Shown here in pieces: positions 47,418 through 59,492 of a stretch of DNA of 64,000 bases. The stretch is from Marispirochaeta aestuarii (GTDB lineage: Bacteria; Spirochaetota; Spirochaetia; JC444; Marispirochaetaceae), in NCBI RefSeq assembly GCF_002087085.1, contig NZ_MWQY01000009.1:62001-126000 (forward strand). The letters run 5' to 3'. The notes under the pieces were generated by a model. That model worked only from the letters and a program-made list of their open reading frames with translations. It was not told the origin of the DNA and made no database searches. Position 1 is the stretch's first letter. Each line of letters starts with the position of its first letter. The position numbers and the translations under genes were made by a program.

Positions 47418-47939
47418 CTATTTTTGTAATGTATACCCCTGATCACTCCCACAGGCATCCAAAAGGGACTGGATCATCCGCAGCAGCTCATCGAGTTCAT
47501 GCCGCCGGCTGCGTGCGCACTCATGGGCAGGTCTGTCGCAGGCAAGGCAGCGCCGGGGTTCCAGTCCCAGGGCACGGCGGTCAGGCTGCGGAGCATCCGG
47601 GACGTGCAGGTCGAAGTCAAAGAGGCGTCCCAGGGGATGGGCTTCCTCGATGCCGACGGCCGCTTTTTTGAGACTAAGGGATTCCCCCTCCACCACCCCA
47701 TACCATTCAAAGCCGCTGGAAGCTCTGCAGGTCTTTTCATGCAGAGGGGAAAATGTCTCCCGGGCTACGCGGATACCGGCGCTGAATACCTGCTCAGCCC
47801 ACTTTGGGGTCTTGTCAGGTCCAGGAATGTTCAGGGTCAGAACGATGAGGGGCAGTCTGTACCGCACGAGAAAGCTCTTTATTCTTCGGGATCTTGTTTC
47901 CCTGGCAGTCAGGATCTCCTGCAGTTCAAGCGCGGCCAT
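47418..47939 (-). CDS. citX: Apo-citrate lyase phosphoribosyl-dephospho-CoA transferase
   Basis: CitX attaches the triphosphoribosyl-dephospho-CoA prosthetic group to CitD. The protein is 173 residues. It shows LTLNIPGPDKTPKWAEQVFSAG, FEWYGVVEGESLSLKKAAVGIEEAHPLGRLFDFDLH and the Cys-rich CLACDRPAHECARSRRHELDEL. It overlaps the end of citG by 14 bp. The last step of holo-citrate lyase maturation is thus encoded with the enzyme. Confidence 0.93.
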   Translation of the reverse strand: MAALELQEILTARETRSRRIKSFLVRYRLPLIVLTLNIPGPDKTPKWAEQVFSAGIRVARETFSPLHEKTCRASSGFEWYGVVEGESLSLKKAAVGIEEAHPLGRLFDFDLHVPDAPQPDRRALGLEPRRCLACDRPAHECARSRRHELDELLRMIQSLLDACGSDQGYTLQK

Positions 47940-48864
47940 GTATCCTCAGCTCCTTTTCTGCTTCATGGACAAAAATGGTTCCCGCCAGAAGATCGGCACA
48001 ACCACCGGGACTCAATCCCCGGAGGATGAACTCCCTGTTCATGGCGTAAAGGTAATTTCTACCTGCTTCTGTACGGACGCCGCCGAGAGCGACAGCTGCA
48101 AGGCTCGAGGACTGCACGAATCTCAGGGCTTCGAGTCCTCCCCGGTGAACGACTGTTGAATCCTCTGCGCTGCACATTATGGCAAGCAATGCCTGAAGGG
48201 ACGCGTCGTTCACGGAATACCCGCTGCCGAGCATGGCGGTATAGACCGGTAAGCCGCATTCAAAGATTACTGGAAAGCCGGCTTCAGCTTCGCCTCGAAC
48301 ACCGGTGATTCCATGGGAGAGAAATAGCCTTTCACCATGACTGAGTTCATTTTTATTATGCAGCCCATTGCCCAGCTCCTTGTACACCATACCCCGGGTC
48401 ATGATACGGATCCCCTTCTGCAGCCCCGGAATACCTGAAGCCCCTTCAGAGGAAGCGGCAGCGACCAGGAGCATAAGCACAAAGATCTGCCCCTTGTGAG
48501 TATTCACCCCTCCCGTGGCGGAAAACATGGCGGTTTCAGCCTCACAGCCGATTTTCCGGACCTTCCGCCACAGAACCTCATCCGGGCTTTTTCCCGCCGC
48601 CAGCGCCCCAGTGGCGGCAAAGTACGGAACCACCGCTTCGATGCTCCGGCGGAAGCAGGCATAGTCCATATCCGCATGCGCACCCTGGTCAGATCTGTCC
48701 ACCAGGCCCGGCTTCGGTGTGGTGTCGAGCTCCTGCAGCATGGCATACCGTGCAACAGCGGAGAGCTGTACATGCCGGGAAACTACCCGGTCCGGGGAGG
48801 ACCGGGTAACGGAGCCAGGCTCAGGTCTTTGCAGCGATGTTCTTTCTTTTAACGATAAAATCAC
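47926..48864 (-). CDS. citG: Triphosphoribosyl-dephospho-CoA synthase
   Basis: CitG makes the citrate lyase cofactor precursor from ATP and dephospho-CoA. Signatures are LDTTPKPGLVDRSDQGAHADMDY and GCEAETAMFSATGGVNTHKGQIFVL, then STVVHRGGLEALRFVQ and the C-terminal LSPGGCADLLAGTIFVHE. The start is uncertain: GTG 48864 (used here) or TTG 48882, both inside the end of tctA and without a good ribosome site, so coupling to tctA is likely. Either gives 312-318 residues, slightly longer than the usual 290. Confidence 0.9.
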   Translation of the reverse strand: MILSLKERTSLQRPEPGSVTRSSPDRVVSRHVQLSAVARYAMLQELDTTPKPGLVDRSDQGAHADMDYACFRRSIEAVVPYFAATGALAAGKSPDEVLWRKVRKIGCEAETAMFSATGGVNTHKGQIFVLMLLVAAASSEGASGIPGLQKGIRIMTRGMVYKELGNGLHNKNELSHGERLFLSHGITGVRGEAEAGFPVIFECGLPVYTAMLGSGYSVNDASLQALLAIMCSAEDSTVVHRGGLEALRFVQSSSLAAVALGGVRTEAGRNYLYAMNREFILRGLSPGGCADLLAGTIFVHEAEKELRIHGRA

Positions 48865-50326
48865 GTAGCACCGGCCCCACAATAGAGATAATGGTCAGAG
48901 CGAACAGCACGATACAGAGGGGAGAGGCAAAGAAGATTTTCAGGCTGCCGTTGGATATGACAAAGGCCTGCCGGAAGGACTGCTCCATATCGTTTCCGAT
49001 TATCACCGCCAGAATCAGAGGCGTTGCCGGAACCTTGGCGGCTGACAGAAAGTACCCCACCACACCGAAAATTATCAGCAGATAAAAGTCGATCACACTG
49101 TAGCTGATGGCGTAGGTACCCACAAAGGCAAGACCGAGCACTATGGGATAGAGGATCTTCGGCGGAACCGACAGCACTCTTACCAGGGCACCTGCCATGG
49201 GAATGTTTATAAAAGCGAGGATGATATTTCCCACGAACATGCTCGCAATGAGGGCCCAGACAATGGTGGACTGCTGCTGGAACAGCATGGGCCCCGGCTG
49301 AAGTCCAAGCATGAGAAGGGCTCCCATCATGACGGCGGTGGTCCCGGATCCCGGTATCCCCAGGGTCAGCATCGGAATCATGGCTCCCACTGATGCGGCA
49401 TTATTGGCGGACTCCGGAGCTGCGACCCCTTCGATGGCTCCTTTTCCAAACTCTTCGGGATGGTCGGAGAGGTTCTTTTCGTTGTTGTAGGAGAGCAGTG
49501 AGGCCATGGTTCCTCCGGCGCCAGGCAGGGCTCCGATGAAGAAGCCGAAGGGCGAGGAGCGCAGGATGGGCCACATACAGCGTTTCCACTGGGCCATGCT
49601 TATCCAGATCTTCCCGAATTTTGTCTGGGCCTTTTTATGTCCCTCCGCAATGTTCCGGAAGCTCTTGAAGACTTCCCCCAGGGCAAAGACGGCGATGATT
49701 ACGACCAGAAAATCAATTCCCGCTTCCAGTTCCAGTATGCCGAAGGTAAAGCGCTTGATTCCTGACTGCCCGTCTATACCGATGGTGGCAATCATCAATC
49801 CCAGCAGGGTGGCAATAAAGCCCTTCAGACTGTCTCCCTTGCTCATGGAAGCGGTGGCAGAAAGGGCAAAGACAAAGAGCATGAAGTATTCGGCGGGACC
49901 GAATCTGAGGGCGAAGCGGGCCACAGGAAGAGCAACCGCCACCATAAGGATTGTCGCTATTACCCCGCCGATAAAGGATGCAATGGCGGATATGGCCAGG
50001 GCCGCCTCCGCTTCACCTTTCAGCGTCATGGGATACCCGTCAAAGGTTGCGGCCACTGCGGCCCCGTCTCCGGGGGTATTGATCAGGATCGAGGACCTGG
50101 ATCCCCCGTACATGGCGCCGTAGTAGACACCCGCCATGGTAATGAGGGACGCCGTAGGGCCCATCACAAAAGTCAAAGGCAAAAGGACTGCCACACCCGT
50201 GGCGGGTCCCAGACCGGGGAGCATACCGATGACCGTTCCGAGGATTCCCCCGATGGTAACCCACAGTATGTTCAGCGGCTGTATTGCAATACCCAGTCCC
50301 TGGAACAGAAAATTCAGTGTTTCCAT
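48821..50326 (-). CDS. tctA: TTT-system large permease, citrate locus
   Basis: This 501-residue multi-helix protein has [47 protein letters not shown] and [23 protein letters not shown], the family's paired LPGxGP-type motifs. With TctB and TctC it imports citrate or another tricarboxylate driven by cation symport. It is the GC-rich homologue of the island copy at 20053-21573, but diverged, so not a recent duplicate. Embedded between citF and citG, its substrate is almost surely citrate. Confidence 0.95.
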
Positions 50327-50335
50327 GGTGAACTC

Positions 50336-50800
50336 CTAAAACCAGATGATCGGTGTTTGCGGAAGATAGACCCCCAGGGTCTTGGCAAACAGCAGATAGA
50401 TAAAAAGACTGAAGGTGAGCGAAACCACCGTATTGATCCTCCATTTGGCTGCTCCGTTGAACAGGAACAACTCCAGCTGCAGAAAAACGAAGGTGGAAAG
50501 CACATACCCCAGGGGTTTGAACAGCAGGGCGTAAAGAACCCCGAAGATACAGGTAAATACGATCTTCGACAGAAAAGGATTCCTGGGTTCGTGCTCTGCT
50601 TTTCCATTTTTTCTTATCCGGCTAAACTCCCGCAGCAGGAGATATGCGGAACAGATCACCATCAGGAACCCCAGACCCGCGGGAAAAACCTTGGGTGCAT
50701 GAGGAATACCGACGCTTGCTTCGGGCAGATTCAGGCTCAGCCAGCTTACAACAAGTCCGATAACAAAGGAGACTGTTCCGGAAATCAGTGTCATATTCAT
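50336..50800 (-). CDS. tctB: TTT-system small permease, citrate locus
   Basis: The protein is 154 residues with four hydrophobic segments: ISGTVSFVIGLVVSWLSL, GLGFLMVICSAYLLLREF, IVFTCIFGVLYALLFKPLGYVLSTFVFL and VVSLTFSLFIYLLFAKTLGV. It is the usual small partner of TctA, 9 bp upstream of it. A stable hairpin precedes the gene. Confidence 0.9.
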   Translation of the reverse strand: MNMTLISGTVSFVIGLVVSWLSLNLPEASVGIPHAPKVFPAGLGFLMVICSAYLLLREFSRIRKNGKAEHEPRNPFLSKIVFTCIFGVLYALLFKPLGYVLSTFVFLQLELFLFNGAAKWRINTVVSLTFSLFIYLLFAKTLGVYLPQTPIIWF

Positions 50801-50820
50801 TGTTTTCCTCGCAAGAAAGA

Positions 50821-50853
50821 GCGGAGCGGCTCCCCTTTACTGGGCCGCTCCGC
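50821..50853 (-). other. Stem-loop between tctC and tctB
   Basis: GCGGAGCGGC (50821-50830) and GCCGCTCCGC (50844-50853) form a perfect 10-bp GC stem with a 13-base loop and no T-run. It should raise TctC over TctB/TctA, as the hairpin at 30714 does for the sugar system. Confidence 0.65.
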
Positions 50854-50872
50854 AGAATTGTACTGGACAGAA

Positions 50873-51877
50873 TCAGTCGGCAAGCATGCCGATTTCATCG
50901 AGAATGCCGCGATATGACTGGTCTACCTTTTTCAGGAACTCAAGATATTCGGGTCCTTGCATGTAGTAATCATCCCAGCCGTTCTTGATCTTCGCCTGCT
51001 TCCACTCTTCGGTTTTGACCATCTGGTTCAGGGTATTTACCCAGAAATCAACGGCGTACTGGGGCATTTCGGGAGGCCCGAACAGTCCGCGCCAGTTGAC
51101 GAAGGTTTCATGAATCCCGGCTTCCATACAGGTGGGAATGGCGGCGACTACGCCTTCTCCAACCCGGTGGTCAGCAGTCTGAGCCAGAGCTTTGAGGTCT
51201 CCGCTCTCGATGAGTCCGCGGACCTCGGACAAACCGGTGGAGAAGAGGTCGATATGACCGCCCATGACCTGGGCTGCACCGGAATCGTTGAAGTTTACAT
51301 AGTCGATCTGCCGCAGGTTCTTGACTCCCGCTGCTTTTGCCATGATCAGGAACTGGATATGGTCCATGGAACCCGCGGAAGAGGTACCGCCGATCTTAAC
51401 GCTTTTGGGGTCCTTTTTCAGGGCATTCATAACATCCATGATGCTGTTGTATTTGGAATCCGCTTTGACAACGAATACCGCATAATCCGCTATCAGGTTT
51501 GCCAGGGGAGTCACATTCTCGTAGTTGAGATCCGTGGAACCGGAAAGCTTGGTAAGGATGAGAGGCGGCGAATACACAGTAATGATGTTGTCCGCCTTGG
51601 GTTTTTCCTGAAGGCTTGCAAGATGTACCGCCCCGCCGGCACCCGGGTTGTTACGGACAGGCATGGGAACTTTTACCAGACCCGTATCCTTGAGAACCTT
51701 GGCAACGGTACGGATAGTCAGGTCCCATCCGCCGCCGGCACCGGAGGGTGCAACGAAATCCAGGGCCCCTTTGGGGTACTGAACCTCTCCGCCTTCTCCC
51801 TGCCCTTCGGCAAGTATCGGGGCTGCCAGGGCAAAACAGACAGCAAGAACCAGCAGGCTTACAATGATTTTTTTCAT
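50873..51877 (-). CDS. tctC: TTT-system solute-binding protein, citrate locus
   Basis: The protein is 334 residues. The signal peptide MKKIIVSLLVLAVCFALAAPILA precedes the Bug fold: YPKGALDFVAPSGAGGGWDLTIRTVAK, PVRNNPGAGGAVHLASLQ, IGGTSSAGSMDHIQFL and GAAQVMGGHIDLFSTG. The binding protein presents citrate to TctAB. It follows citF by 54 bp, across an inverted repeat. Confidence 0.94.
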   Translation of the reverse strand: MKKIIVSLLVLAVCFALAAPILAEGQGEGGEVQYPKGALDFVAPSGAGGGWDLTIRTVAKVLKDTGLVKVPMPVRNNPGAGGAVHLASLQEKPKADNIITVYSPPLILTKLSGSTDLNYENVTPLANLIADYAVFVVKADSKYNSIMDVMNALKKDPKSVKIGGTSSAGSMDHIQFLIMAKAAGVKNLRQIDYVNFNDSGAAQVMGGHIDLFSTGLSEVRGLIESGDLKALAQTADHRVGEGVVAAIPTCMEAGIHETFVNWRGLFGPPEMPQYAVDFWVNTLNQMVKTEEWKQAKIKNGWDDYYMQGPEYLEFLKKVDQSYRGILDEIGMLAD

Positions 51878-51902
51878 ACAGACTCCTTATTGGGTATTTT
51901 TA

Positions 51903-51917
51903 CGCAGCCAGGCTGCG
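51903..51917 (-). other. Short inverted repeat between citF and tctC
   Basis: CGCAGC (51903-51908), CAG, GCTGCG (51912-51917): a 6-bp stem. In the minus-strand transcript it is followed by TAAAAATA. Possible processing or partial termination site. Confidence 0.4.
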
Positions 51918-51931
51918 CGTATGCACTAGAA

Positions 51932-53470
51932 TTAATCCGCGACGTTGCGTATGACATCGATTATTGTTCCGTCCCGGTATTCCACGAGTCCTACGACCTT
52001 GTCACCGAACTTTATGGGTTCCGGGGTCCCCGCCACCCGTTCGGCCCGTTCCTTCAGTTCCTGAATGGTGTACAGAGGCAGCTTGCTGCCGTGGAAATAG
52101 TCGACCAGGTCCTTGCGCCGGGGATTGATGGCAATTCCCCTGTCGGTAACCAGGATATCCACGCTCTCTCCGGGGGTAACGACAGTCAGGACCCTGTCCA
52201 CAACACTGGAGATCCTTCCCCGGATCAGCGGGGCGACTACCACGGAAAGGCCGGAACCGACGGCGGTATCGGAATGACCACCGGAGGCCCCCATGATGAT
52301 GCCGTCGGAACCGGTAAGCACGTTGACGTTGAAGTTCGTATCGATTTCCAGGGCACTGAGGACCACAACATTCAGCTTGTTTACTGCGCAGCCCTTGTTC
52401 AGGGGGTTCGCGTAGTAGGAGGCGTCGATCTCCGTGTGCATGGGGTTTACGGCGATGGAGTTCACCGCATCCAGATCAAAGCTCTGGACATCCAGCATCC
52501 TCTTTATGAGCCCCTCCTGGTGCATCCTGACTATCTGGCTGGTTATTCCCCCAAGGGCCCAGCTGCAGGTGACCCCGCGCCTGCGCATGTAATCCGAAAG
52601 GTAGCGGGTTGTCGCCAGGGAGGCGCCGCCGGAACCGGTCTGCAGGGAGAAACCGTCTTCAAAATAGGGGGAATAGGCGATTACATCAGCAGCGTTCTGG
52701 GCGATCAGGAGGTCCTTGGGGTTACTGGTTATACGGGTCGCCCCTGTGGCTATGCGGCTTGAGTCCCCCACGGAATCCACGACAACGATATGGTCCACCA
52801 GGTCCTGATCGATACTGAAGGGAGTGTTCGGGTATTCCACCAGATTGTCCGTAATAAGTACGACCCTGGAGGCATGCTTGGCGTCGACAATCGCATAGCC
52901 CAGGGACCCGCAGGCGGATGTCCCGGTAAAGCCGTTGGCATTTCCGTATACATCGCTGGAGGGTACCCCTAAAAACGCGACATCGATCTTTATCTGGCCC
53001 GTCTCCACGGCCCTGGCACGGCCGCCGTGGGAATGAAACAGGACCGGCACATCCATGATTCCAGCGGAGATCTGCTCACCGAGCCTGCTCCTGAGGCCGC
53101 TGGTTATTATGCGGCTTATGACCCTGTTCTTAATATGCGGAAGCAGTTCGTCATGGACAGTCGTCAGGGAAGAACTTGCCAAAGTCAGGTTTTTTATTCC
53201 CAGGTTGGCAATGACATCCAATACCATGTTGACGACCTTGTCGCCGTTGCGGAAATGGTGATGGAACGAGATCGTCATGCCGTCTTTAAGCCCGGTTTTC
53301 AGAACCGCCTGCTCCACCGTATCCAGCAGTTTGTTCAGCCGGGGAAGGTTGCGGTTTCCCTTTTCCTGACGCACCAGCGGGGTATTGGCAAAGGCCCCCT
53401 GGAAGGGTTTCAGCTTTTCACAGCCGGGTATTGAATCCGGGATTTCCCGGCCAATCGCGTTCTCAGACAT
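51932..53470 (-). CDS. citF: Citrate lyase alpha subunit
   Basis: CitF is the citrate:acetyl-ACP transferase of the lyase complex, making citryl-ACP from citrate and acetyl-ACP. At 512 residues it has the expected length. It shows GMTISFHHHFRNGDKVVNMV, LFHSHGGRARAVETGQIKIDVAFLGVPSSDVYGNANGFTG, QTGSGGASLATTRYLSDYMRRRGVTCSWALGG and GSDGIIMGASGGHSDTAVGS, the conserved CoA-transferase-fold segments. It overlaps citE by 8 bp. Confidence 0.97.
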   Translation of the reverse strand: MSENAIGREIPDSIPGCEKLKPFQGAFANTPLVRQEKGNRNLPRLNKLLDTVEQAVLKTGLKDGMTISFHHHFRNGDKVVNMVLDVIANLGIKNLTLASSSLTTVHDELLPHIKNRVISRIITSGLRSRLGEQISAGIMDVPVLFHSHGGRARAVETGQIKIDVAFLGVPSSDVYGNANGFTGTSACGSLGYAIVDAKHASRVVLITDNLVEYPNTPFSIDQDLVDHIVVVDSVGDSSRIATGATRITSNPKDLLIAQNAADVIAYSPYFEDGFSLQTGSGGASLATTRYLSDYMRRRGVTCSWALGGITSQIVRMHQEGLIKRMLDVQSFDLDAVNSIAVNPMHTEIDASYYANPLNKGCAVNKLNVVVLSALEIDTNFNVNVLTGSDGIIMGASGGHSDTAVGSGLSVVVAPLIRGRISSVVDRVLTVVTPGESVDILVTDRGIAINPRRKDLVDYFHGSKLPLYTIQELKERAERVAGTPEPIKFGDKVVGLVEYRDGTIIDVIRNVAD

Positions 53471-54359
53471 GTAACTCCTCCTCGGGGATACGCTGGCCCG
53501 AAGCCTTGGCCATTTCGATTACCCGTTCGGCCCGGTCGACCATGGGCTTGTCCACCATCTTGCCGTCCACGGTAATAACACCCGTGTTGCGCTTCTTCGC
53601 TTCCGCAATGCCGCGCATGACCCGGAGGGCGGCCTCAACTTCCGCCTCGGTGGGGGCGAAAACATCGTGGACCGGCCGGATCTGCCGGGGAGATATGATG
53701 GACTTGCCGTCGAAGCCGAGCTGTTTGGCCATGCGGACCTCTTCCACAAAGCCTTCCTCATCGTTCAGGTCGGAAAACACCGTATCCAGGGCATAGATTC
53801 CCGCGGCCCGGGCGGCAGTTACCAGGGCGGAACGGGCATAGAAGATCTCCGAACCTGCCCGGCTCCTGGAGGTTTTCATGTTGGTGACATAATCCTCCGC
53901 TCCAAAGGCAATGCCGATGAGCCGGGAACTTGCGGTGGCTATCTGGTAGGCGTTCAGGATTCCCAGGGGACTTTCGATGGCGGCCATCAGGGCGATGCTG
54001 CCCTCTTCAAGGCCAGCGGCTTTCTCCTCCTGCCGAATAAGCTCCTCCACATCCTGGATGTCCCGGGCGGTCTCGGTCTTGGGAAGCCGGATTATATCGG
54101 GTCCAGCGTTGACCATGGCTTTAATGTCGTCCCGGCCGTAGGGCGAATCCAGGCCGTTGATCCTGACCACCGTTTCTGTGCCTTCGTAGTTCAGGGTGCG
54201 CAGAGCGTGGAAAACCAGGAGCCTGGCGCTGTCTTTTTCGTTTACGGCGATGGAATCTTCCAGATCGAACATTATCGCGTCGGAACGGTATATATGGGCA
54301 TCCTTGACCATGGCGGCATTGCCCCCGGGAACGTACAGCATTGTTCTTCGCAGTTTCAT
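53463..54359 (-). CDS. citE: Citrate lyase beta subunit
   Basis: CitE cleaves citryl-ACP to oxaloacetate and acetyl-ACP. The protein is 298 residues. MKLRRTMLYVPGGNAAMVKDA, DAIMFDLEDSIAVNEKDSAR, VRINGLDSPYGRDDI, MAAIESPLGILNAYQIA and GIAFGAEDYVTNMKTSRS give the Mg-binding Glu and Asp residues of the HpcH/CitE barrel. It follows citD by 4 bp and overlaps citF. Confidence 0.97.
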   Translation of the reverse strand: MKLRRTMLYVPGGNAAMVKDAHIYRSDAIMFDLEDSIAVNEKDSARLLVFHALRTLNYEGTETVVRINGLDSPYGRDDIKAMVNAGPDIIRLPKTETARDIQDVEELIRQEEKAAGLEEGSIALMAAIESPLGILNAYQIATASSRLIGIAFGAEDYVTNMKTSRSRAGSEIFYARSALVTAARAAGIYALDTVFSDLNDEEGFVEEVRMAKQLGFDGKSIISPRQIRPVHDVFAPTEAEVEAALRVMRGIAEAKKRNTGVITVDGKMVDKPMVDRAERVIEMAKASGQRIPEEELHV

Positions 54360-54363
54360 AGGC

Positions 54364-54654
54364 TCAGCGTCTCCACCGCATCTGGCTTATGCCCGCGGCA
54401 CGGTATGCTGCCGCTTCCAGGCGGGCCCTGACGGTGCAGTCCAGGGCACCCTTGTCCTGCAGGCTTACATGAACATCCTTTATTCCAAGACCTTCCAGGA
54501 CTTCGTTGACTACGGCGATAATCCGGTTTCCGAACTGCTTTTTTACGATGCTCTCCAGCTCGATCTTTATGCCCGGATCCGTGGGGGGACTGACGGTAAC
54601 AAGAACATCGCTGGACTCCAGAGTCCCGGCAATGCCTTTTTTGGTGATCTTCAC
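54364..54654 (-). CDS. citD: Citrate lyase acyl-carrier protein
   Basis: The protein is 96 residues. GTLESSDVLVTVSPP near residues 10-24 contains the Ser that carries the phosphoribosyl-dephospho-CoA arm; IKIELESIVKKQFGNRI and GALDCTVRARLEAAAYRA complete the family pattern. It overlaps citC by ATGA. Confidence 0.95.
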   Translation of the reverse strand: MKITKKGIAGTLESSDVLVTVSPPTDPGIKIELESIVKKQFGNRIIAVVNEVLEGLGIKDVHVSLQDKGALDCTVRARLEAAAYRAAGISQMRWRR

Positions 54655-55691
54655 GCAGATCCTCCTTGAAGTTTGTTGCGGATATCCTCCGCTTCCGCGG
54701 AAGTCAGGTATGTGTAGGTACTGGGAGGTACGATTTTCGCCGTCTCTTCTGTTTTACCGGCGGCAATGAGGCGCCGGACCTCGGATGCACTGATGGCAGT
54801 ATTGTCAGATTCCCGGCGCTCAATCTCCACGACATCGAGACGGTATTCCGGCAGGATTTCGTGCATGCTCTGGTTGTAGCGCCTGGTTACCGGGCAGAAG
54901 GGTTCCTGGCCGACATAGCGGCGCCGGATTCCGGCGGCAGGGGCGATTTTCTCCCCAAAGATCGTCAGGTCCAGGCGGGTATGGGCATCGAAAATCTTTC
55001 CCTTGTCCTTGATGAAGTAGCTGGGGAACGTGGCGTTGGAGATAATATAGTCCCCGCCGGGGATCACCCGTACATTCTCAAGGTCCTGCACCCCATCCTC
55101 AATCAGCTTTTTCCGGACGTGAAAGGGAAACACCGAGCGATCCTCCTGAACAACAAATAAAAGAACCAGGGGATTTTCTCCGGCAGCACGTTCCACAAGG
55201 TATCGATGTCCCAGGGTAAAGGGGTTGCAGTTCATTACCAGGGAAGCTGCGGGCAGGCCCATGGGATTGAGCCTGGAGAGTCCGGAAAGAAACAGACTGA
55301 AGTTACGGCTGTTGTCTTCCAGGAGGAGGACCTCCTCCGTGGAGGCTATCTCGGTATATCCCAGGGCGTTGAAATGCGCCCTGTTCTGCGGCAGTGTGTA
55401 AATAAACAGGGAATCGATGCCCCGGTTATGGGCCCGGACCTTCAGATAGGTCAGGACTTTGGCGGTAAGATCTTCGCCCCGGTGCTCCTCATCGACGACG
55501 ACACCTTTTACAACCTTTCCGGAAAGGGATCCGGTGGCCACCATGGTCTCACCGTTGAAGATACCGATGGAATACTCAATATCGTCCTCATAGTCGAGGC
55601 CGTGGCGGGCCAGAAACCTGACCACCTGTTCCCTCTCCGTCGGAACCCGGGGCGACAGGCTCCGGACAATTACATTTGCTCCCCAATCCAT
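54651..55691 (-). CDS. citC: [Citrate (pro-3S)-lyase] ligase
   Basis: CitC acetylates the thiol of holo-CitD with acetate and ATP, switching the lyase on. The protein is 346 residues. The N-terminal part is GNAT-like (VKGVVVDEEHRGEDLTAKVLTYLKVRAHNRG). The nucleotidyltransferase part has MNCNPFTLGHRYLVERAA (the TxGH motif) and later TAISASEVRRLIAAG. It is the first structural gene after the regulator pair, and the palindrome at 55748 lies 57 bp upstream of its ATG. Confidence 0.96.
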   Translation of the reverse strand: MDWGANVIVRSLSPRVPTEREQVVRFLARHGLDYEDDIEYSIGIFNGETMVATGSLSGKVVKGVVVDEEHRGEDLTAKVLTYLKVRAHNRGIDSLFIYTLPQNRAHFNALGYTEIASTEEVLLLEDNSRNFSLFLSGLSRLNPMGLPAASLVMNCNPFTLGHRYLVERAAGENPLVLLFVVQEDRSVFPFHVRKKLIEDGVQDLENVRVIPGGDYIISNATFPSYFIKDKGKIFDAHTRLDLTIFGEKIAPAAGIRRRYVGQEPFCPVTRRYNQSMHEILPEYRLDVVEIERRESDNTAISASEVRRLIAAGKTEETAKIVPPSTYTYLTSAEAEDIRNKLQGGSA

Positions 55692-55747
55692 GAGTACAGT
55701 GTGGGGCAGGAAATTTCAGCTGTAAGTAAGAGTATCTTTGATTTCTT

Positions 55748-55765
55748 TGTAGGATTTTTCCTACA
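55748..55765. promoter_or_regulatory. Candidate response-regulator operator ahead of citC
   Basis: TGTAGGA-TTTT-TCCTACA is a perfect palindrome of 7-bp arms, directly after the response-regulator stop codon and 57 bp ahead of citC. Symmetric half-sites of this size suit a dimeric NarL/LuxR-type regulator, the type encoded immediately upstream. It lacks a following T-run, so it is a poor terminator. Confidence 0.6.
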
Positions 55766-56404
55766 TCAGCCCATGGGCATCAGCTTGTGCCTGAAGACAT
55801 ACTGGGTAAGCTGAGCATTGTTTTTCAGGTTCATCTTCTCCAGCAGCCGGCTGCGGTAGGTACTTACGGTTTTTACGCTTATGTAGAGTTCGTCGGCAAT
55901 CTCCGAAAGGGTTTTTCCCGATGCTATGGAGAGCATGACCTGGGTTTCCCGTTCAGACAGAAGCTCATGAGGCAGGGCGGTACCGGGGTGCCGGATGGTC
56001 TCCAGCAGAATACTGGAGGTCGTTTCGTTCATGTAATGTTCCCCCCGGGCCACCTGACGCAGTGCCCGGACAAGCTCTTCCGGTGCTGTCGCTTTATTCA
56101 GGCAGCCCGCCGCGCCGAGTCTCAGGGCCCGGGCCGCGTACTGGGTCTCCGGCTGTATGCTCAGCATCAATACAGGCAGGTCGGGGAACTCCTGCTTTAC
56201 CTCCGCCAGGACAATCATTCCGTCCTTGTCCGGCAGGCTTATATCCAGGATAAGAACATCAACGGGGTTCTTTCGCAGCATGGAAAGTACATCGCAGCCC
56301 TTCCCGGTTTCGTATATTCCGGAGACCGAAAGGGACTCTTCCATGAGCTGAATAAGCCCCCGGCGCAGTACCGGGTGGTCGTCTGCTATCAGTACACGCA
56401 GCAT
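55766..56404 (-). CDS. NarL/LuxR-type response regulator of the citrate locus
   Basis: The protein is 212 residues. The receiver domain has DDHPVLRRGL (acidic pair), the phospho-acceptor Asp in DVLILDISLPDKDG and the Lys in LNKATAPEEL. The output domain is a LuxR HTH: ELLSERETQVMLSIASGKTLSEIADELYISVKTVSTYRSRLLEKM. It is 4 bp after the sensor gene and directly ahead of citC, so it probably activates citrate genes. Citrate is usually sensed by CitA-type PAS kinases with CitB; this pair is of a different type. Confidence 0.95.
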   Translation of the reverse strand: MLRVLIADDHPVLRRGLIQLMEESLSVSGIYETGKGCDVLSMLRKNPVDVLILDISLPDKDGMIVLAEVKQEFPDLPVLMLSIQPETQYAARALRLGAAGCLNKATAPEELVRALRQVARGEHYMNETTSSILLETIRHPGTALPHELLSERETQVMLSIASGKTLSEIADELYISVKTVSTYRSRLLEKMNLKNNAQLTQYVFRHKLMPMG

Positions 56405-56408
56405 GTCA

Positions 56409-59400
56409 TCATCCTGTTACAGGGACTCTCAGGAAAACGGTGGTTCCCAGGGGAGTGGAATGGATCGATATTTCACCGCCAAGATGCTTGGCCCGTTCCT
56501 GCATACCGATTATACCATAGGATTCAGCGTCGGTAAGTTTGTTTTTCGCCATACCTACTCCGTCATCATGGACAGTCACGTAGAGAATGCCCTCATTAGT
56601 CACAAGGGACAACGAGGCACTGGCAGCGTTTGAATGCCGGACTATATTCGTTACCGTCTCCTGAATAATGCGGAATACCGCCGTGGCCCGCTCCACATTC
56701 ATCTCCGGGGTGGGACCGACGGAACGCTGAAAACGCAGAGACGAATGGCGCTCCGTCTCGTCCAGGAGCCAGTCCACAGCTTCACCGAGGCTGAGATTGT
56801 CCAGGATAACCGGACGCAACCGAGTCGCAAGGTCCTTTGACCAGTCCAGGGTTTCGTTGATAATGCCGAGCATCGATTCGTAGCGGGCCTGACGCTGTTC
56901 AAGCATTGAAGCAGCGTTTCTTGAGAGCCAGAAGATATGCATCTTGAGGGTTGTAAGCAGCTGCCCCAGTTCGTCATGTACATCCCTGGCGATGGCCTTG
57001 CGTTCCTCCTCCCGGATGTCCTGCACATAGTTGGAGAACTGCTGGAGCATGCGGTTCCGCTTATCGAGGCCGGCAATCCGGATCCTGCCGATAACAAAGA
57101 AAACCGAAACAAGCAGCCCCCCCATCAACAGGGCAAAGTACCAGGTCTGGTAAAAGGGGGGTACCACGGTTATTTCGAGATCAGCATAGTTGTTGCTCCA
57201 GACCCCGTTACTGTTGGTGCCCATAACCTGAAGAATGTAGGACCCCGGAGGAAGACTGGAATAGTAGAAGGTGTTCTCTGTCCTCAGATAATGCCAGTCG
57301 GTATCAAAGCCGTTAAGCCTGACGGCATATTTGTTTTTCCCGGAATCGGCATAATCCAGGGATGCAAAGGAGAAACCGATAAAACTGTCCCCGGGATAAA
57401 TGGTCAGACTCTCTGTCAGACAGATATTCCTTTCCAGATAGACCCGGTCCCGCACCGGCAATCCCACCGGGATTTCCTTATTGAACAGGCTGAAGCCGGT
57501 GATCCGGATATCCGGGGAATAGGAGTTGACATGGATTTTTTCCGGATCGAAGCTCAGAAGACCCCGGGCTGTTCCGAACAGAAGGTTTCCATCGGAGCTG
57601 CGAAAATAGGCGTTCCGGCCGAACTGGTTGGAGAGGGTGCCATCGGATCTCCACAAGTTGGTAATCTGCTCGGTTATAAGGTCAAAGCGGGACAAGCCGT
57701 TGGCGGTACTGACCCAGAGGAACCCGCTGTCATCCGGAAGGATACCGAAAACATTGTCGTCGGACAGACCGTCCTGTACCCGGAAAGCATGAAAACTCCC
57801 TTTTTCCCGATCAAAACGGTTTAAACCGCCTCCGGAGGTTCCCACCCAGAGATTCCCTTCGCCGTCCTCGGATATGCAGTTTACGCTGTTGTCGCTGAGG
57901 CTGCGGAGGTCCCCGGGGTCCCGGGTATAATTGCGGAACCGGTCCTCTCCCCGGATCTTCATGCTCAATCCCCCGTCCCAGGTACCTATCCAGAGATTAC
58001 CAGCGGAGTCCTCGTAGAGGGCCCGAATCGAGTTTCCCAGCAGGGATTCCGGGCGACCGGGAATATTCATGAAACGCTCGAATCGGTTCTCTTCAGGAAG
58101 AAACCGGTTCAGTCCGCCTCCTTCGGTCCCGATCCAGAGATACCCCTCCCGGTCCACCTGAAGAGCCCATACTACGTTCGAACTGAGAGCAGAGGGATTA
58201 TCGGGGTCCGCGTAATACCGAAGAAAACGGCCGTCCCTTCTTCTGTACTGCATGAGCCCGTCGCCGTCGCTGCCGATCCAGATATTGCCTTCAGGATCCT
58301 CCGCCAGGGAGTAGAGATGGTTGCTGTTTATGCCCTGCGGGTCACTTTCGGAATGAAGATAGTGGCGTAGAGTCCCCTGCCGGTCCATCCGCAGGAGGCC
58401 CTGGCCGTCGGTGGTTATCCAGAGATCGCCCTCCCCGGATTCGAGAATCTTCCTGACATCGTATCCGCCCTGGAGCAGATAGGTAAAACCCCTGGCCCGG
58501 GGATTATAGCGGTCGACTCCGCCTCCCCTGGTGGCCACCCAGACGATACCGGATTTATCCACATAAATATCTCGGATAAAATCGCTGCTCAGGGAAAAGT
58601 CGTTGTTCTGATCATGGACAACGGTACGGGTCGTGTAGCCTCCGTCCACAAGCACCAGTCCGCTCCGTTCCGTACCTGCCCAGATAGTACCGAAATCGTC
58701 CTCAGCAATGCAGCGTACGCTTTTTTCCCCGAATACCTGCCGGAACGAGGGCTCCCCTGACGCAGAATCGGCGACATAAAGCCCCTCGTTCTCAAGACCC
58801 ACCCAGATCCTTCCCAGGGAATCTTCAAATACCTCCCGGACGGTGGACTTGTCAAAGAAGTTGTTCAGAGAAAACCCGTCCCGGAAGAGGGAAAGCCCTC
58901 CCCCCTGGGTCCCGATCCACATACGATCTCTTGAATCCCCGAGAAGAACCCTGATAACATCACTTTCGAGGCCTTCAATTCCCGAGTGGGAATAGCGGAT
59001 GAATTGTTCCGTTTCCGGTAAAAAGATCGCAATGCCCGCATCCCCGGTTCCGATCCAGATTCGTCCGGCGGAATCCTCTTCCAGACAGAAGACCTTCTGG
59101 CTCGGAAGGGAGTTGGGGTTTCCCGGTTCCGCCTGGTAGACAGAGAAGGAACCGTCGGAAAAGTCATACCGGTTGAGTCCTCCTCCGTCGGTCCCGATCC
59201 AGAGGCGCTGTCTGGAATCCTCGAATATGTCAAAGATAACCGAACCGGAGATACTCTCGGGACGCGCCTGTTCCGGCTTGAAAACCTGAATGTTCCGGCC
59301 GTCGTAGCGATTAAGTCCCGAGAAGGTACCGAACCACATGAAGCCCAGATAATCCTGATAAACCGCGAAAACTGAGTTGTTGGAGAGTCCCTCCCGCAGG

Positions 59401-59492
59401 GAGAGATGGATAAACTGCATTGGCTCCTCGGCATACTGCGGGACCGGTGCCAGCAATACGCCGAGAAGAACCAGAAGCATGGTCTTCTTCAC
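56409..59492 (-). CDS. Two-component sensor kinase with beta-propeller, Y_Y_Y and HisKA_3 domains
   Basis: The protein is 1027 residues from a GTG at 59492. A signal peptide (MKKTMLLVLLGVLLAPVPQYA) is followed by about 14 reg_prop repeats (for example GLMQYRRRDG, GNIWIGSDGDGL, GYLWIGTEGGGLNRF, GNLWVGTSGGGLNRF) forming two seven-bladed propellers outside the membrane. A Y_Y_Y domain (to PPFYQTWYF) precedes one membrane helix (FALLMGGLLVSVFFVIG). In the cytoplasm a HisKA_3 box has the phospho-His in IARDVHDELGQLL near 836, then a HATPase domain (ETVTNIVRHSNAAS, DDGVGMAKN). There is no receiver domain. Propeller sensors of this kind are common for polysaccharides in Bacteroidetes; linkage to citrate lyase genes is unusual. 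Confidence 0.95.
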   Translation of the reverse strand: MKKTMLLVLLGVLLAPVPQYAEEPMQFIHLSLREGLSNNSVFAVYQDYLGFMWFGTFSGLNRYDGRNIQVFKPEQARPESISGSVIFDIFEDSRQRLWIGTDGGGLNRYDFSDGSFSVYQAEPGNPNSLPSQKVFCLEEDSAGRIWIGTGDAGIAIFLPETEQFIRYSHSGIEGLESDVIRVLLGDSRDRMWIGTQGGGLSLFRDGFSLNNFFDKSTVREVFEDSLGRIWVGLENEGLYVADSASGEPSFRQVFGEKSVRCIAEDDFGTIWAGTERSGLVLVDGGYTTRTVVHDQNNDFSLSSDFIRDIYVDKSGIVWVATRGGGVDRYNPRARGFTYLLQGGYDVRKILESGEGDLWITTDGQGLLRMDRQGTLRHYLHSESDPQGINSNHLYSLAEDPEGNIWIGSDGDGLMQYRRRDGRFLRYYADPDNPSALSSNVVWALQVDREGYLWIGTEGGGLNRFLPEENRFERFMNIPGRPESLLGNSIRALYEDSAGNLWIGTWDGGLSMKIRGEDRFRNYTRDPGDLRSLSDNSVNCISEDGEGNLWVGTSGGGLNRFDREKGSFHAFRVQDGLSDDNVFGILPDDSGFLWVSTANGLSRFDLITEQITNLWRSDGTLSNQFGRNAYFRSSDGNLLFGTARGLLSFDPEKIHVNSYSPDIRITGFSLFNKEIPVGLPVRDRVYLERNICLTESLTIYPGDSFIGFSFASLDYADSGKNKYAVRLNGFDTDWHYLRTENTFYYSSLPPGSYILQVMGTNSNGVWSNNYADLEITVVPPFYQTWYFALLMGGLLVSVFFVIGRIRIAGLDKRNRMLQQFSNYVQDIREEERKAIARDVHDELGQLLTTLKMHIFWLSRNAASMLEQRQARYESMLGIINETLDWSKDLATRLRPVILDNLSLGEAVDWLLDETERHSSLRFQRSVGPTPEMNVERATAVFRIIQETVTNIVRHSNAASASLSLVTNEGILYVTVHDDGVGMAKNKLTDAESYGIIGMQERAKHLGGEISIHSTPLGTTVFLRVPVTG

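Follow-up and report, generated by a model that had tools for sequence, protein, structure and literature searches.

The inverted repeat TGTAGGATTTTTCCTACA, located between a response-regulator gene and citC in Marispirochaeta aestuarii, is very probably (roughly 0.88) the principal portion of an operator with three half-sites that the adjacent LuxR/NarL-type response regulator (RR) would bind in its phosphorylated form to activate the cit and tct genes. This reading draws on the conservation of the site, its fixed geometry, its co-occurrence with the RR and the coherence of its target genes, all of which can be read from the sequences compared. It would provide citrate fermentation in environmental spirochaetes with a regulator, binding code and target set, and would connect a sensor kinase of the propeller type with what is likely a small-molecule pathway. 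Searches of the open-licence literature returned no described regulator of citrate fermentation in environmental spirochaetes, no report joining TGTAGG/CCTACA with a response regulator and none joining a two component regulator propeller with citrate lyase.

The palindrome and its gene neighbourhood

Within the window (the whole 64,000-nucleotide stretch of DNA analysed), the palindrome reads TGTAGGAAAAATCCTACA on the minus strand of the genes, that is TGTAGGA-AAAA-TCCTACA, with 7-bp arms, a 4-bp centre and no mismatches. It abuts the TGA stop codon (55768-55766) of the RR ORF, and 56 bp separate it from the citC ATG (55691-55689) on the same strand. The perfect symmetric site that the first-pass annotation had placed just after a NarL/LuxR-type regulator gene is therefore present as described. 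Its claim that the site has no second copy in the window also holds for exact copies, and the exact palindrome occurs once in the whole M. aestuarii genome (4.21 Mb, 78 contigs, 97% complete). When two or three mismatches were allowed, four matches were found in the window against a shuffle mean of 2.0, with 16 of 100 shuffles reaching four; the three further matches are chance-like. Twelve more places with one or two mismatches elsewhere in the genome were dismissed as background, because a reversed control pattern had more matches (20, against 13 including the exact one).

Perfect 7-N4-7 inverted repeats are not rare, the window containing eight where about four (64000/4^7) are expected by chance, and palindromicity by itself is not significant; conservation was therefore needed as the deciding test. 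The eight repeats are what could be said for a chance inverted repeat. That explanation is refuted by the conservation data given below, in which letters, position and geometry stay the same across several families while the centre varies, and its probability is negligible.

The RR (212 residues) is a LuxR/NarL-type (GerE) response regulator: its Pfam matches at 0.001 are solely Response_reg (84.5 bits, cut-off 30.2), GerE (64.1 bits, cut-off 23.5) and a sub-cut-off Sigma70_r4_2. The helix-turn-helix sequence KTVSTYR is kept among its orthologues, with KTISTYR in 2 of 12. The neighbouring sensor histidine kinase has 1027 residues. In the target operon, tctA, tctB and tctC had no match in an NCBIfam scan and were named by homology, gene order and the first-pass annotation, while CitG (265 against 272.3) and CitE (441.4 against 443.4) scored just under their cut-offs. 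At the cit locus L006 of G047, a genome of another family, CitC is 91% and the RR 93% identical to those of the window, compared with 62% and 74% in G001, from the window's own genus. These identities suggest that the cit cluster and its operator were horizontally transferred.

Table 1. Features of the cit locus in the window, and of related non-coding blocks in other genomes (given as locus:coordinates)
Feature	Position	Strand	Basis
citX, citG, tctA, tctB, tctC, citF, citE and citD, rest of target operon (coordinates given: citX 47418, citG 47926, tctA 48821, tctB 50336, tctC 50873, citF 51932, citE 53463, citD 54364)	47418..54666	-	ORFs, family matches, homology and gene order
citC, first gene of target operon	54651..55691	-	ORF and domain/family matches
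Likely -10, CACACT (3/6 to TATAAT), 21 nt past third half-site	55698..55703	-	conserved position
Likely -35, CTTACA (4/6 to TTGACA), overlapping third half-site	55721..55726	-	inferred from 17-bp spacing
Third half-site, TCTTACT	55725..55731	-	alignment of operators
Half-sites 1 and 2 of the operator	55748..55765	-	window sequence and conservation in relatives
RR (receiver and GerE/LuxR HTH), presumed operator-binding protein	55766..56404	-	Pfam, NCBIfam, homology
Sensor histidine kinase (two-component regulator propeller, Y_Y_Y, HisKA_3, HATPase_c)	56409..59492	-	Pfam
Non-coding block in six delta-proteobacterial/Syntrophaceae bins	L177:9821-9906, L181:3462-3547, L193:9805-9890, L194:9810-9895, L214:4011-4098, L217:9823-9907

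Conservation of the palindrome and a third half-site

Among 60 genomes including M. aestuarii, five contained exact palindromes, six in all. Five of these palindromes precede a CitC match by 54-77 bp, and the sixth is on the same contig of G048. A search of 394 genomes of the class retrieved 21 exact palindromes in 15 genomes, compared with six for the reversed control pattern. The genes behind them are citC in nine places, tctC in four, oadB in two, a chemoreceptor gene in one and others in five, the last being about the number that the control predicts. Conservation upstream of citC in relatives, which had been proposed as a check, was thus found, and the CitC proteins concerned are 36-91% identical. 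Genes in the relatives, many of which are metagenome bins, were identified by a simple ORF script, homology labels and Pfam rather than taken from annotation.

Alignment of the operators revealed a third half-site, TCTTACT in the window, lying exactly 16 bp downstream of the palindrome on the minus strand; it was absent from the first-pass annotation. The consensus operator is TGTAGGA-N4-TCCTACA-N16-TCYTACW. Since the third half-site also helped to accept degenerate sites, the clean test is the set of exact palindromes. There it stands at exactly 16 bp in all 16 places at citC, tctC, oadB or the chemoreceptor gene (15 with TCYTACW, and ACTTACT with one mismatch in G002), and in none of the other five exact-palindrome places. 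These five (in G331, G365, G311 and, twice, G353), which were inspected by eye, were set aside as background.

Across the 35 operators kept, the information content is 0.8-2.0 bits in the columns of the half-sites, mostly 0.3 bits or less in the 16-bp gap (maximum 0.59) and no more than 0.18 in the 12 upstream columns, although the arms were picked by similarity, so that their conservation is partly built in. The conserved arms are TGTAGG-N6/7-CCTACA, with TGTAAG or CTTACA arms now and then, and the centre is N6 in 17 operators and N7 in 18. The pattern TGTARG-N6/7-CYTACA-N15-18-CYTAC was found at 27 places in 19 of 388 genomes, compared with 10 for a control: 14 at citC, seven at tctC, two at oadB, one at the chemoreceptor gene and three elsewhere (G210, G030:C6 and G227). 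The matches in G030:C6 and G227 were treated as background. In G210 (L138:2051-4572), a diverged RR (42% identity) is followed 4 bp past its gene by TGTAGGGATTTTCCTACA, with a KaiC-like ATPase gene downstream. A slightly wider tripartite pattern matched the M. aestuarii genome only at the window site. No second tripartite site in the window exceeded 9 of 12 arm bases, and hence there is no such autoregulation site at the kinase gene.

Co-occurrence with the response regulator

An RR orthologue (E ≤1e-55) was found in 21 of 58 genomes, and 34 citC loci were fetched from 33 genomes. Every one of the 19 RR-positive genomes in this set has an operator in front of citC or of tctC. In 16, the sequence preceding citC matches at least 11 of 12 arm bases, and in the remaining three (G078, G111 and G198) the operator is at tctC, with 10/12 in G198. 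None of the 14 RR-negative genomes exceeds 9/12 arm bases upstream of citC or has a tripartite match anywhere. Fisher's test gives 9.8e-7 for 16/19 against 0/14, a value that overstates independence because the genomes are related. L017, a second, distant citC locus of the RR-positive G047, has no operator (8/12).

A second comparison covered the best 80 of 198 loci with RR relatives, among which 20 also hold citC. In 19 of these 20, a site with at most two arm mismatches is accompanied by a third half-site matching in at least five of seven positions; the twentieth (L172) has three arm mismatches and a perfect third half-site. One of the citC-holding loci, L162, belongs to a metagenome bin labelled Holophagaceae.

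The operator might instead serve another LuxR-type regulator. Such regulators are numerous, and the first RR search gave 90 candidate places in the M. aestuarii genome alone; however, the site co-occurs with this RR subfamily (19/19 against 0/14) and is found in the same gene neighbourhood.

Target genes

Citrate fermentation proceeds from citrate uptake through citrate lyase to oxaloacetate decarboxylase, and the operator is found before genes for each of these steps. In four genomes (G048, G129, G120 and G162), where citC and tctC lie apart, an operator copy stands before each of them. Copies also precede oadB in G111 and G078, with fumarase genes on the other side in G111, where the neighbours were scanned. 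G217 has copies before citC and before an oadA-oadB pair (PYC_OADA and biotin domains; OadB 60%), and G280 and L163 have copies before tctC. The oad genes of M. aestuarii itself are without an operator, none being found in the 10 kb around its oadB. In total, at least 13 sites have no RR gene in front of them: five at citC, four at tctC, two at oadB, one at oadA and one at the chemoreceptor gene. The operator thus appears to travel with its target genes, separate tctCBA and oad operons bearing their own copies. The chemoreceptor gene, encoding a HAMP/MCP protein in G162 (L074:3457-5533), is preceded by a full tripartite operator, and its product is a candidate citrate-regulated, perhaps citrate-sensing, receptor.

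The palindrome could alternatively form an RNA hairpin in the kinase-regulator transcript, as its 3' end, a stabiliser or an attenuator. In favour of this are the place of the palindrome right at the RR stop codon, its ability to fold into a 7-bp stem and its position behind the RR gene in many relatives too. Against this, at least 13 sites lie elsewhere, the third half-site is co-conserved although outside the stem, and the folding z-score of -0.06 is no better than that of shuffles. Neither the T-tract of an intrinsic terminator nor compensatory changes were found at the site: the 27 changed arm pairs in the 35 operators comprise none that is compensatory, 10 wobble and 17 mismatched pairs, and therefore the site is not a conserved RNA hairpin. 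This pattern indicates that sequence rather than pairing is conserved, and leaves a transcript hairpin very improbable. The only Rfam match nearby, RT-4, is at chance level (20.8 bits, cut-off 73.5) and off the site.

The first-pass annotation had considered the palindrome suited, as the site of a dimeric regulator encoded next to it, to the activation of citCDEF-tctCBA-citGX. Conservation and the coherence of the targets support this proposal, with the amendment that the operator exceeds the palindrome.

Promoter geometry and a probable leaderless citC mRNA

The best TATAAT-like hexamer lies 21 or 22 nt past the third half-site in 27 of the 35 operators; in 1,000 shuffles of the downstream sequence this number averaged 6.3 and never exceeded 14. 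The core promoter predicted at this place in the window (Table 1) is weak and was not listed by a strict promoter scan. The citC ATG of the window is 6 nt past the -10 element, and 22 of 26 citC loci have an in-frame ATG 32-35 nt past the third half-site. Since this is 5-8 nt past the -10 element, the citC mRNA is probably leaderless. Of the other loci, L149 has a GTG alone, at 33, and L153, L156 and G127 lack any start codon at a leaderless distance. The tctC and oadB operators are instead followed by a leader with a GGAG-type ribosome site.

With this geometry, the centre of the palindrome would be at about -65, upstream of the transcript, as would fit a DNA-level activator site; as a rule, a site at such a distance upstream of a transcript suits an activator. 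Sequence alone cannot separate activation from repression, but the position of the operator, upstream of and overlapping a poor -35 element, argues against a repressor site. Altogether, we consider it unlikely that the operator serves another regulator or repression.

For the three-half-site activator operator, we infer the binding and phosphorylation of the RR, an activating rather than repressing effect, the transcription start and the signal as follows. The propeller-type kinase would phosphorylate the RR upon citrate or a related signal. One RR dimer would occupy the palindrome and a further subunit or dimer the third half-site, and the bound RR would bring RNA polymerase to a promoter whose core elements are poor. 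The genes switched on would be citCDEF-tctCBA-citGX in M. aestuarii; in relatives they would also include separate tctCBA, oadB or oadAB and, once, a chemoreceptor gene.

Distant homologues

Six delta-proteobacterial/Syntrophaceae bins encode a more distant RR homologue, behind which come TGTAGG-N6-CCTACA and, 178-194 nt past the RR match, a nearly invariant non-coding block of 85-88 nt that ends in a hairpin and a T-run (Table 1). The block contains ACCTCCTTTA, identical in sequence to the 3' tail of 16S rRNA; the three of the six blocks scanned had no Rfam match at the gathering cut-off. By analogy with rsmY/Z, which are driven by GacA, the block is a candidate small RNA that the RR may drive. 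Two Ignavibacteria/Bacteroidetes bins (L174:9660-9865 and L191:9643-9850) have TGTAGTA-N4-TACTACA-N16-TTCTACA after an RR homologue and, next to follow, a conserved non-coding stretch with GGATGCC...GGCATCC and a T-run at its end; the former is a candidate symmetric change of specificity and the latter a candidate for another small RNA. A third such bin (L211:9789) has a looser N7 form of the TGTAGTA-type site. At L166:9800-11818, in a delta-proteobacterial bin, an RR homologue and a degenerate TGTAGGA-type site are followed by a pyruvate-formate-lyase-like gene.

We lean, with some reserve, towards a wider picture in which a GacA-like but separate RR subfamily reads a three-half-site code that would coordinate citrate lyase, uptake, oxaloacetate decarboxylase and chemotaxis in spirochaetes, with a leaderless citC, and has distant members in other phyla with similar sites, apparently driving small RNAs.

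Comparison with known regulators

The best NCBIfam match of the RR is the GacA/UvrY/SirA family (NF007018), at 146.8 bits against a cut-off of 280, and by this curated cut-off the RR is not a member. The layout of the palindrome is the same, 6-N6-6, with G for A at one position here: GacA binds TGTAAG-N6-CTTACA (PMC4950607, PMC9911603), and UvrY, which likewise binds an 18-nt palindrome of this kind, also crosslinks to a second place near -35 (PMC4682653). At csrC, a TGTAAG half-site lies 16 bp from the palindrome on its upstream side (PMC4682653), whereas the extra half-site of the spirochaete operator is on the promoter side. The recurrence of the fixed 16-bp half-site in the csrC promoter hints at a geometry shared by GacA-like regulators. 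GacA/UvrY boxes have N6 centres, while about half of the spirochaete operators kept (18/35) have N7. The main targets of GacA/UvrY/SirA are genes for CsrA/RsmA-binding small RNAs (rsmY/rsmZ and csrB/csrC), whereas behind the spirochaete operator lie citC, tctC, oad genes and one for a chemoreceptor. GacS/BarA is a hybrid kinase, in contrast to the propeller-type kinase found here.

Citrate lyase or tricarboxylate transport genes are likewise under two-component control in the CitA-CitB and TctD-TctE systems, which use CitB-type or OmpR-type regulators. The RR described here differs in combining a receiver with GerE, Pfam finding neither a CitB-type nor an OmpR-type DNA-binding domain, and its kinase in being a propeller protein. 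The pairing of a HisKA_3 kinase with a LuxR-type RR is also seen in MctS-MctR, NarXL, UhpBA and VraR. The second NCBIfam match is MctR for the RR and MctS for the kinase; all these matches score far under the cut-offs of the families (for the RR, MctR 127 of 300 and NarL 115 of 250), and VraR is the closest solved chain to the RR by sequence.
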